The notes beneath the pieces were generated by a model. The model was not told the DNA's origin. It ran no database searches and worked only from the letters and a program-made list of their open reading frames with translations. From IMG/VR virus record IMGVR_UViG_3300020021_000018, positions 1 through 54,310 of that record: DNA of 54,310 nt. One strand, given 5' to 3'. The translations under genes and the position numbers were made by a program. Shown piece after piece: positions 4,453 to 7,264 of the stretch (position 1 is the first letter of the stretch; each line of letters begins with the position of its first letter). Origin of the DNA: a virus.

Positions 4453-5979
4453 CTAGTCCTGCGCTTCGCGATCTTCGTCGTAGTCGAGCATCGCGTCACC
4501 CTCGGCGTCGTAGCCGGCGTAAGCCGTGTGGTTGATGACGTCACCCACGATGTCACGGAAGAGATCATCCAAGGTGCAGACATTCGCACCCTCAGCCGCC
4601 TCCTCCATGAGGGCCAGCTGCGGACGCAGACCCAGGGCGGCATCCACCAGATCGTCGGTGGTCACCATGTCGGGCTTACCACCGCTACGCGAGATCGAGT
4701 AACGCATCGCACGATTGATGGCCTCGACGGCGAAAGCGGGCAGGAAGCCGATGAAGGCCTTCCCGACACGCTCGTAGTCGATATCGCTGAGAAGCTTCGC
4801 CGGGACAAGATTCTCCACGAGGCGCTTGAAGCCGGACGGATCCAGCTCAGCGACGTGGATCACCGCATCGAGCCGGCCCGGACGAAGAACAGCCTTCTGG
4901 ATCTTCTCCACAAAGTTGGTGGTGAAGCCGGCGACGACCTCTCCACCCTTGGAAGTGATCCCGTCGAGCATGTCCAGAAGCTTCGAGATCTGATCTGCTG
5001 TGCCGCCATTGGCCAGCAGATCGATGTCCTCGAACCAGACAACGGCAGGAGCGTAAAGCTTCGCCGTATTGAGGACCTCACCCAGATCGTCCTTGCCGGT
5101 GCGGCACAGGATGTAGGTCCAGCCATTGGCCTGCGCATGCTGCGCGGTCAAGATGCCGGCCGACGTCTTACCGGTGCCGTAGGGGCCTTCCAGGAGGACG
5201 GCGCGCTTGAGTGGAATCTTCAGATCACGCATCGTCTGCGTGTGCTTCAGCAGGCTCCACAGGTTCGCGTCGAGCTGCGTCTGCACCTCTTCCGAGAAGA
5301 TGATCGTCTTCGGATCCACCCGATTCACATCGAGGAAGACGGGCTCGGTACCACCCGTGATCGCACGACCCTTGTAGATCGAGTTGTGCTTCAGCTCCTC
5401 CTCGACAAGCTGGAAGAAGGCCTCGATGTGCTTGCGATACTTCTTCGGTGCGTCGACCGCCAGGACGAAGATCATCCCGTATTCGCGATCCTTCGAATCG
5501 CCGAGGGTGAAAGTTGCCTCCAGGGGTGGGAACTCAACATCACCCCACGGAACCTGGACACTCTGCCCCGGACCGGTTTCGATCGTGATCAGGGCCGGCG
5601 GGTTCGTTCCGAAGAAGCTCACCTGTGCTTTGCCGATCCCGGCCGTTCCGAAGTTCTTCATCATCGCCGCATCGAAAGCATGCGCGCCATCCCAGGGACG
5701 GTAATTGAACTTCCGCTGGAAGGTGCAGTGCCCCGTCTGCGACTTCTCGTACCGCTCCAGGTAGTCGATCGCGTCGCCGACACGTCCCTCGTAGGTGCCC
5801 GGAAGGACGATCTTGTCGCCGTCGAAGAGGATGTCGTCATCGGTGACGGTCAGCCCCCCGAGTACTTCGAGACTCGCGATGATCGCCATGCGGACCTGAT
5901 CCGCCTGGGAGATCTTCGCCTTCTCGGTACGGTGTGCTTCAACGACGGCACCCATCAGATCTTTCACATCAATACTCAT
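4453..5979 (-). CDS. AAA+ ATPase
   Basis: 508 residues. The AAA+ module occupies about 255-400: Walker A GPYGTGKT (265-272), Walker B VVWFEDID (313-320), a sensor-like TTN (353-355) and RPGR (366-369), the arginine-finger region of the FtsH/Cdc48 class. The first 230 residues form a separate domain that may bind a substrate or partner. The C-terminus is acidic. It has no protease domain, so remodelling of protein complexes is the likely role. The start has GAAGGAGG upstream. It has its own promoter and terminator, so it is a single-gene unit. Confidence 0.8.
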   Translation of the reverse strand: MSIDVKDLMGAVVEAHRTEKAKISQADQVRMAIIASLEVLGGLTVTDDDILFDGDKIVLPGTYEGRVGDAIDYLERYEKSQTGHCTFQRKFNYRPWDGAHAFDAAMMKNFGTAGIGKAQVSFFGTNPPALITIETGPGQSVQVPWGDVEFPPLEATFTLGDSKDREYGMIFVLAVDAPKKYRKHIEAFFQLVEEELKHNSIYKGRAITGGTEPVFLDVNRVDPKTIIFSEEVQTQLDANLWSLLKHTQTMRDLKIPLKRAVLLEGPYGTGKTSAGILTAQHAQANGWTYILCRTGKDDLGEVLNTAKLYAPAVVWFEDIDLLANGGTADQISKLLDMLDGITSKGGEVVAGFTTNFVEKIQKAVLRPGRLDAVIHVAELDPSGFKRLVENLVPAKLLSDIDYERVGKAFIGFLPAFAVEAINRAMRYSISRSGGKPDMVTTDDLVDAALGLRPQLALMEEAAEGANVCTLDDLFRDIVGDVINHTAYAGYDAEGDAMLDYDEDREAQD

Positions 5980-6138: not shown

Positions 6139-6203
6139 TTCATAAACCGAGTGTCACCTTACATCACCAGCGCACGTTTAAAGCCAAGATCATTCTGAGT
6201 CTA

Positions 6204-6275
6204 TCCAGTGCTCTGCCATTGAGCTACAGGGCCAAGTTTGGAGGCCCCATTGAGATTCGAACTCAAACCCCTGGA
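6204..6275 (-). ncRNA. Permuted tRNA-like RNA, copy 2
   Basis: Read on the minus strand, the 3' half comes first: TCCAG, a 4-base variable loop, TTGAG-TTCGAAT-CTCAA (T arm), TGGGGCC, T, CCA. After a 5-base linker AACTT comes the 5' half: GGCCCTG, TA, D arm GCTC-AATGGCA-GAGC, A, CTGGA. The halves match as one tRNA. The acceptor GGCCCTG pairs with TGGGGCC (two wobbles) and the anticodon stem CTGGA pairs with TCCAG. Bases next to the open stem (TTTTCTT) could supply the loop, but U37 would be abnormal. Flanks carry GTTTGAG (6351-6345) and AGACTCAGA (6202-6194), as in copy 1. It could be a permuted tRNA or a Y-RNA-like tRNA mimic. Confidence 0.75.
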
Positions 6276-6411
6276 AAGAAAAGCCTTGACTGGTTGATCT
6301 GGTGAAGGGTGGATCTTTATTGAGACTAGAGCGAGAATCTGAGACTCAAACGTCAAACTACTTCGACGCCTATGAATCTGATCATCTCAATCTGAGTCTC
6401 GCAGTCGGCGC

Positions 6412-6487
6412 CGAGGTCCCTCTGCCAATTGGGGTACCGGGGCATGAATGGAGCCCCAGCCAGGATTCGAACCTGGACATTGCCTCG
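6412..6487 (-). ncRNA. Permuted tRNA-like RNA, copy 1
   Basis: The order is the same as in copy 2. The 3' half is CGAGG, a 6-base variable loop, CCAGG-TTCGAAT-CCTGG, CTGGGGC, T, CCA. After the linker TTCAT comes the 5' half: GCCCCGG, TA, D arm CCCC-AATTGGCAG-AGGG, A, CCTCG. The acceptor strands pair over 7 bp with one wobble, and CCTCG pairs with CGAGG, extending to CCTCGGC/GTCGAGG. The T loop TTCGAAT and the GG of the D loop are canonical. No matching 5' half lies upstream and no matching 3' half downstream. The flanks carry GTTTGAG (6514-6508) and AGACTCAGA (6399-6391). No normal U33 anticodon loop can be built from the adjacent bases. Confidence 0.75.
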
Positions 6488-6526
6488 ACTATGGCTACGT
6501 CCCCGCGCTCAAACGGGGAGCTTTGG

Positions 6527-7264
6527 TCAACTACCCAGAAGGTAGTTGAAGACAGGGGTGGAAAGGTCGACACCTTCCGGGACCGTCGTCATATTCGCCT
6601 CTTCACGCGCGAACTTGACCGCCTCCTGAAGCTTCGAAACCTTCGCCAGCAGGAGAGCCTTCTCCGGAGCGGGCATCGCACCCGAGAACTTCGTCGTCGT
6701 CCACGTACCAACAATCACATCCTCGGTGAACATCTGCACCTGAGCCGGGTGCTTCTCCGTCGCGATGGCCAGGACGTGATTCTTCGGAACCTTCGCCGTA
6801 CGCGTCGACTGCTTCGATGTCGACTTGTAGACACCTGTCGTCGGGTCCAGACTCCAGTCCTCCGAAGGGTCCAGAAGGGGAAGCTTCGTCACGAAGGTGT
6901 GTACGTCGACGAGCTGCTTCTCCAAGAACATCAGCGTTGTCACTGGAACGTCGGCCAGGACGGTGACGCCATCGACCGTCACATTGCCACGGGCGACCGT
7001 ATTGGCCTCATCCAGTTCAGCAACAACATTGAACATCTTGGAAAGATCCAGGCGCAGCTGCGCCAGGGCACCCGTCGTCGTGATCTGAACCTTCGTAAAC
7101 TCGGGCGGGAGCTGGTCACCCAGCTCATCCTTCGGAGAGTACGTCTTGGTGATGCCGGAGATCAGGGGAGCCTTCTGCACATTGCGGAAGGTCTCCGTCC
7201 AGGCCGCCTGAGCTTCACGCTTCTTCGTCTGCGCGATGGCGATGATTTGATTCAGTCGAGTCAT
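6527..7264 (-). CDS. Conserved hypothetical protein next to the permuted RNAs
   Basis: 245 residues, soluble, with mixed helices and strands and no export signal. Motifs such as SKTYSPKDE-like (ITKTYSPKDELGDQLP), FLEKQLVDVHTFV and KFAREEAN recall a family of unknown function that I know from Streptomyces genomes and phages. I am not certain of its domain number. The ATG overlaps the HNH stop (ATGA). The permuted RNA genes begin about 40 bases after its stop and are probably on the same transcript, so a role with these RNAs is possible but unproven. Confidence 0.55.
   Translation of the reverse strand: MTRLNQIIAIAQTKKREAQAAWTETFRNVQKAPLISGITKTYSPKDELGDQLPPEFTKVQITTTGALAQLRLDLSKMFNVVAELDEANTVARGNVTVDGVTVLADVPVTTLMFLEKQLVDVHTFVTKLPLLDPSEDWSLDPTTGVYKSTSKQSTRTAKVPKNHVLAIATEKHPAQVQMFTEDVIVGTWTTTKFSGAMPAPEKALLLAKVSKLQEAVKFAREEANMTTVPEGVDLSTPVFNYLLGS

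Follow-up and report, generated by a model that had tools for sequence, protein, structure and literature searches.

YrlA, a bacterial Y RNA, carries on a rod a permuted transfer RNA (tRNA)-like head, in which a closed acceptor stem lies between the T arm and the D arm and which is opened on the anticodon side; its protein partner is Ro60/Rsr (RF02553; TROVE PF05731). YrlA RNAs are often in tandem, lie beside the gene of their partner and occur in phages and bacteria, and Y RNAs are known from mycobacteriophages (2025 paper, PMC12282133). A Ro60-YrlA-PNPase particle has been described (summarised in PMC8394870), and the YrlA head has been proposed as a possible anticodon nuclease inhibitor (PMC7790460). 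Permuted tRNA genes of red and green algae and of archaea also have the 3′ half first and a short linker, and their halves meet in the anticodon region; algal genes with the junction at 37/38 have been described (PMC3978253). In two-piece (permuted) transfer-messenger RNA (tmRNA), acceptor ends are joined by a removable linker and the tRNA-like domain sits on a long helix. Large phage RNAs of the GOLLD type often lie within tRNA clusters. Large structured RNAs often within such clusters are reported from mycobacteria (PMC9569102). Described here is a locus in the IMG/VR virus record IMGVR_UViG_3300020021_000018, analysed over its full length of 54,310 nucleotides (nt; the window), in which two tRNA-like heads with swapped halves follow a gene of the protein family DUF7873.

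The heads are at 6204-6487 on the minus strand and start ~30 nt past the end of the DUF7873 gene, which is on the same strand. Each copy reads from the T arm through the 3′ acceptor strand, discriminator and CCA to a linker of 5 nt, after which come the 5′ acceptor strand and the D arm; each head is closed by its own anticodon-like helix. The reading preferred here, at a probability of about 0.65, is that a structured non-coding RNA of ~320 nt and the DUF7873 protein form a two-component ribonucleoprotein, in which the heads mimic tRNAs and which works like the Ro60-Y RNA particle.

Linkage of the RNA to DUF7873

Relatives were collected as DUF7873 homologues in phages and in IMG/VR and GTDB genomes. 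They were searched with a strict scan that requires 7/7 acceptor pairs, and a covariance model of the unit, R1, was added for the tally. Of the 217 loci with enough downstream sequence, 208 have a permuted unit on the strand of DUF7873 and less than 1,500 nt downstream of it (17/18 in the first set, 72/75 and 40/44 in viral sets, 79/80 in bacterial genomes), and usually there are two units in tandem. The strict scan gave 245 units within this distance, a single further unit in 1.3 Mb of other sequence, and none when run on 1,085 shuffled regions. The linkage is thus near-obligate. Clustering of neighbouring reading frames at 224 loci yielded no second conserved neighbour family.

Distances between the proteins and between the RNAs are correlated (Mantel r 0.89, or 0.78 when phages are taken by themselves; 0/999 permutations), which is the pattern of components that move jointly. 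The phages that carry the pair infect Actinobacteria, Cyanobacteria, and alpha- and gammaproteobacteria, and the chromosomes are those of Actinobacteria, Chloroflexi, Planctomycetes and Acidobacteria; protein gene and RNA adjoin in hundreds of unrelated phages and bacterial chromosomes. DUF7873 is present in ~3% of the Actinomycetota species sampled, 9% of Chloroflexota and 5% of Planctomycetota, and also on a few Streptomyces and Nonomuraea records of a plasmid collection. This patchy occurrence is the pattern of an accessory module. tRNA genes lie within 2 kb of the module at 11/14 GenBank phage and 58/123 IMG/VR loci, and at only 5/80 chromosomal loci.

Structure of the RNA in the family and in the window

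In 58 diverse heads, the T and acceptor stems display 226 double-change cells, compared with 70 ± 6 in shuffles. The stem covariation score is 0.89 against 0.21 in shuffles, and the signal is lost when the register is slid. All five pairs of the anticodon-like helix can form in 64-65% of loci, in 20-21% when the partner strand is taken from another locus and in 7-8% with shuffled flanks. In unit 2 this helix mostly extends to 6-7 base pairs (bp) and is followed by an asymmetric internal loop and then by an outer helix, the rod, found in 53% of loci versus 3% in shuffles.

Three motifs outside the heads are conserved in the 83 two-unit loci: TTAAACG in 66 (1.3 in shuffles), GCTCNA in 71 (6.8) and ATCRA in 68 (11.9). 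The window carries all three. The discriminator is mostly A73 in unit 1 and U73 in unit 2 across the family. At two DUF7873 loci the rod is kept and the heads are degenerate. Just downstream of DUF7873 at loci L132 and L145, the first rod is retained and its tRNA head is apparently gone, which suggests that the rod, not head 1, is the constant part of the RNA.

The window locus was first noticed from its sequence alone, and what the earlier note described is found there (Table 1): two permuted sets of tRNA parts with 5-base linkers, acceptor strands and anticodon-like helices that pair inside each RNA, and heads opened on the anticodon side, where a helix closes each copy. The outer pairing it drew is not supported and is mostly wrong. 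Both GTTTGAG and AGACTCAGA are present, but 6341-6348 pairs better, and locally, with 6393-6400 (8 bp), and the outer stem that recurs in the family in copy 2 is a different one (6284-6291 with 6182-6189). The shared flank motifs are accounted for by an insertion in the window, where the segment between the units is 150 nt, compared with 83-120 in the other 82 two-unit loci. The note overlooked that the self-closing heads are parts of a single conserved RNA, bipartite in build and linked to the DUF7873 gene directly upstream.

Table 1. Positions of the DUF7873 gene and of the RNA parts in the window
Feature	Position	Strand	Basis
DUF7873 gene (PF25283, 245 amino acids), conserved partner	6527-7264	-	Pfam 307 bits, E 1e-91, cut-off 27
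GC-rich hairpin directly past DUF7873 stop	6500-6519	-	fold and family consensus; similar hairpin in many relatives
Copy 1 outer stem, 5′ strand CGTAG, partner 6400-6404	6495-6499	-	fold
Copy 1 anticodon-like helix, strand before T arm, GTCGAGG	6483-6489	-	7/7 pairs with 6410-6416 (7 bp)
Copy 1 T arm CCAGG TTCGAAT CCTGG	6460-6476	-	model R1, 67.7 bits
Copy 1 acceptor 3′ strand (6453-6459), discriminator T and CCA	6449-6459	-	7/7 pairs with 6437-6443
Copy 1 linker ttcat	6444-6448	-	sequence
Copy 1 acceptor 5′ strand GCCCCGG	6437-6443	-	acceptor pairing
Copy 1 T8-A9 and D arm	6418-6436	-	sequence
Copy 1 anticodon-like helix, strand after D arm, CCTCGGC	6410-6416	-	pairing with 6483-6489
Insertion unique to the window, hairpin possible: GAGACTCA 6400-6393 with TGAGTCTC 6348-6341	6341-6400	-	
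Conserved core TTCTCGCTCTA between units	6327-6337	-	GCTCNA conservation
Conserved ATCAA motif between units	6294-6298	-	family conservation
Copy 2 outer stem, 5′ strand AGTCAAGG, partner 6182-6189	6284-6291	-	recurs across family
Copy 2 anticodon-like helix TCCAG, partner 6204-6208	6271-6275	-	pairing (5 bp)
Copy 2 T arm TTGAG TTCGAAT CTCAA	6250-6266	-	model R1, 54.5 bits
Copy 2 acceptor 3′ strand (6243-6249), discriminator T and CCA	6239-6249	-	acceptor pairing, 7/7 with 6227-6233
Copy 2 linker aactt	6234-6238	-	sequence
Copy 2 acceptor 5′ strand GGCCCTG	6227-6233	-	acceptor pairing
Copy 2 T8-A9 and D arm (GCTC AATGGCA GAGC)	6210-6226	-	sequence
Copy 2 anticodon-like helix CTGGA	6204-6208	-	pairing with 6271-6275
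Copy 2 outer stem, 3′ strand TCTTGGCT	6182-6189	-	partner 6284-6291
Conserved TTAAACG motif, end of RNA core	6175-6181	-	family conservation

An AAA ATPase (phrog_10440) is encoded at 4453-5979 on the minus strand of the window; it weakly resembles IetA, an anti-phage ATPase. A relative is found near DUF7873 in one other viral contig (L006/L058). As a third component of the module the ATPase was rejected, since it is not conserved near DUF7873.

Two sequenced phages display related features. In the Klebsiella phage vB_KpM_FBKp24, a 'tRNA-Sup-TTA' annotated by the depositors overlaps the start of permuted unit 2 (L016:4018-4097) and looks misannotated; the record also has an annotated promoter in the stretch from DUF7873 to the RNA. 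The Streptomyces phage Targaryen (MZ958750.1, L022:2986-3064) has a lone permuted unit inside a tRNA cluster, matched by R1 at 40 bits. The unit is followed by CTAAACG, which recalls the TTAAACG motif, and no DUF7873 was detected in the genome.

Comparison with Y RNAs, tRNA genes and other structured RNAs

The permuted tRNA-like domain on a stem, a mark of YrlA and bacterial Y RNAs, is present here. The RNA might be a divergent YrlA-type RNA bound by Ro60 of the host or of a phage, with DUF7873 an unrelated neighbour. YrlA is the only non-tRNA Rfam family with any support: the window RNA has no match at curated cut-offs, and at relaxed thresholds RF02553 matches both copies, with 34 bits (E 1e-5) for copy 2 and 21.3 bits (E 0.047) for copy 1. 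Its gathering cut-off of 69 does not discriminate, because the Ro60-linked Y RNAs encountered here also reach just ~30-60. Model R1 in turn matches RNAs beside TROVE proteins in some genomes that carry DUF7873, and these Y RNAs likewise occur in tandem; the shared head architecture supports a mode of action like that of the Y RNA particle.

The partner, on the other hand, differs. The Ro60-stem motif TGC..ACTWC of the 5′ stem strand, found in 10/10 of the Ro60-linked Y RNAs that defined it (most of them beside a confirmed TROVE protein), is in 3/245 DUF7873 units, which is chance level (4.2 expected). DUF7873 has no TROVE profile match. No Ro60/TROVE gene is in the window record, as the earlier note had observed, and none is ever a conserved neighbour of the module; 20/42 DUF7873 genomes are without any TROVE match, and genome G170 has both systems, ~2 Mb apart. 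Among the phage homologues of DUF7873 that were found, none is from a mycobacteriophage. In addition, two heads are combined here in one bipartite RNA with motifs of its own. As the Ro60-stem motif is absent and Ro60 is never a conserved neighbour, the RNA is, on sequence grounds, not a canonical Y RNA; the YrlA-like topology stands and the identity does not. With the linkage to DUF7873 and the correlation of distances also against it, a divergent Y RNA of Ro60 is quite unlikely.

Several Y RNA loci were seen alongside. At L247 to L251, in a planctomycete, an acidobacterium and actinobacteria, at least two tandem Y RNAs are upstream of or beside TROVE proteins. They score 30-60 against the YrlA cut-off of 69, and the family model seems too strict. 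L248 also has several Y RNA stems without a tRNA head. In Ktedonospora (L253:4039-4325), two permuted units adjoin a CoxE-like vWA protein, which may be a divergent Ro60 or a partner of a different type.

Neither unit is likely to be a functional tRNA, since the unit 2 helix runs into the rod and just 54/166 units, a third, have CCA after the discriminator, although it could be added after processing. ARAGORN finds no tRNA over the whole window. A normal-order tRNA with an intron, composed of the unit 1 5′ half and the unit 2 3′ half, fails in 81/83 two-unit loci: the acceptors pair in 2/83, whereas those of the same unit pair 7/7 by design of the scan. The lack of pairing between the two RNAs had been noted from the window alone. 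The note had named two findings that would refute its observation, a normal-order tRNA and a lack of conserved pairing in relatives; both were looked for, and the observation was not refuted.

Two permuted tRNA genes of the algal or archaeal type would be spliced at the anticodon loop to a circle, with the linker removed by RNase P and RNase Z to give functional tRNAs, and DUF7873 might then be a splicing or ligating enzyme. The window has the right order of halves, a short linker, CCA, G1-C72 and an intact elbow, the junction has algal precedent, and some 5′ halves resemble CUGUUAA or CUGAAAG loops. These apparently intact anticodon loops ('Asn' in L008 and L018, 'Phe' in L011 and L012) were rejected, as they are the conserved internal loop CUGA..GACUGA of the family. 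The unit 2 helix is 6-8 bp, with position 32 paired with 38, in 46/52 loci, so that joining leaves no normal 7-nt loop with U33 and purine 37 in this unit, which bears out the doubt of the earlier note about a functional tRNA and speaks against the algal and archaeal parallel it had offered. A rod replaces the anticodon loop, neither CCA nor an anticodon is conserved, most linkers are short loops, many of them of 6-10 nt, and the sequence gives no sign of a splicing product. Family searches revealed no ligase or nuclease match for DUF7873. Permuted tRNA genes are thus highly improbable. The literature search on phage permuted tRNAs returned just the algal and archaeal genes and general reviews; its coverage did not extend to the main YrlA studies, which may already mention some of these RNAs.

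Scarcely credible is an origin as functionless decayed or shuffled tRNA genes, or as tandem tRNA junctions. Tandem tRNA-Asn junctions do yield false R1 hits in Streptomyces genomes (L239, L240). For the module this artefact is ruled out: only 3/245 units overlap an ARAGORN call, the window has no tRNA calls, compensatory change is strong and the RNA is conserved across bacterial phyla. Control of DUF7873 or of a downstream gene, whether by a cis-regulatory or antitermination element or by a self-cleaving ribozyme that tRNA-shaped domains stabilise, would fit an RNA that is always 3′ of DUF7873 and has conserved unpaired motifs outside the heads. No downstream gene is conserved, however, two full tRNA elbows exceed the needs of such an element and no Rfam riboswitch or ribozyme matches, and this explanation is very unlikely. 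Two-piece tmRNA shares the joined acceptor ends and the long helix, but here no tag-coding part was recognised and a full D arm is present; the Rfam permuted tmRNA model has weak matches in related loci and none in the window region at the gathering cut-off or E≤10. GOLLD and its kin resemble the RNA as large structured phage RNAs, and differ in that the present RNA has no Rfam match, one protein family as partner, and permuted tRNA heads.

A putative ribonucleoprotein

DUF7873 and its RNA look like a previously undescribed RNA-protein machine, similar to the Ro60/Y RNA particle and distinct from it. Binding of the RNA by DUF7873 is suggested by the genomic linkage. The AlphaFold2 model of the protein is confident (mean predicted local distance difference test score 96.5), and no fold match was found in PDB or BFVD (viral folds) at E≤0.001. 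There is no meaningful match in PADLOC and none in NCBIfam, and a known anti-phage system was dropped as a candidate. In an alignment of 99 sequences, N88, H172, Q175, A219, R220 and N224 are invariant; N88, H172, Q175, R220 and N224 could form a binding or active site. Alignment A1, which spans all DUF7873 types, was too diverse for a scan of the collection. No paper naming DUF7873 was found in the literature search.

Several points weigh against such a particle. The protein is not basic (isoelectric point 6.3), and comparison with PDB and BFVD found no recognisable RNA-binding fold. The outer rod of unit 1 is far less regular than that of unit 2, and some members from phages of Gram-negative hosts apparently have one clear head only. 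About 3% of DUF7873 loci are without the RNA, and in a few loci it is truly lacking. The acceptor-pairing figure is partly selected because the scan demands these pairs, although even so shuffled sequence gives no hits. Single-sequence folding energies are ordinary (z -0.7, -1.4), and the evidence therefore has to be comparative.

As proposed, the RNA would be made from the DUF7873 transcript or just after it and would consist of two domains, each a rod topped by a tRNA-like head. T arm, closed acceptor stem and D arm would form the upper half of a tRNA, with the rod in place of the anticodon arm. DUF7873 would bind the rods and their conserved unpaired motifs. The heads would offer a tRNA elbow and acceptor surface that recruits or titrates a tRNA-binding enzyme, much as the head of YrlA does in the Ro60-Y RNA-PNPase particle. 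The enzyme might be PNPase, a nuclease, or one that processes or modifies tRNAs. A decoy role similar to that proposed for YrlA against anticodon nucleases is possible. In phages, the module would likely protect or manage tRNAs during infection, a role that fits its place inside phage tRNA clusters; in chromosomes, it may have an accessory role in stress or defence. A more elaborate version is doubtful: a new, Ro60-independent class in which RNase P and tRNA maturation enzymes open the acceptor loops of two different mimics on a single RNA, so that the protein holds CCA-ended, possibly aminoacylated 'tRNAs without anticodon', which would act on translation or serve as decoys for nucleases that target tRNAs.

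Until now, the bacterial particle known to rest on a permuted tRNA mimic has been that of Ro60 and Y RNA. Another protein partner for such heads, to all appearances an independent one, would make the protein-tethered tRNA mimic a recurrent design; this partner is spread over phages of very different hosts and, in at least four bacterial phyla, over chromosomes. For DUF7873, a family otherwise without one, this supplies a hypothesis of function. The module is present in sequenced laboratory phages (Gordonia phages GodonK and Ziko, Rhodococcus phage NiceHouse, Arthrobacter phage Racecar) and also in Streptomyces, and the purpose of the tRNA-like head of Y RNAs becomes testable in a simple two-gene system.
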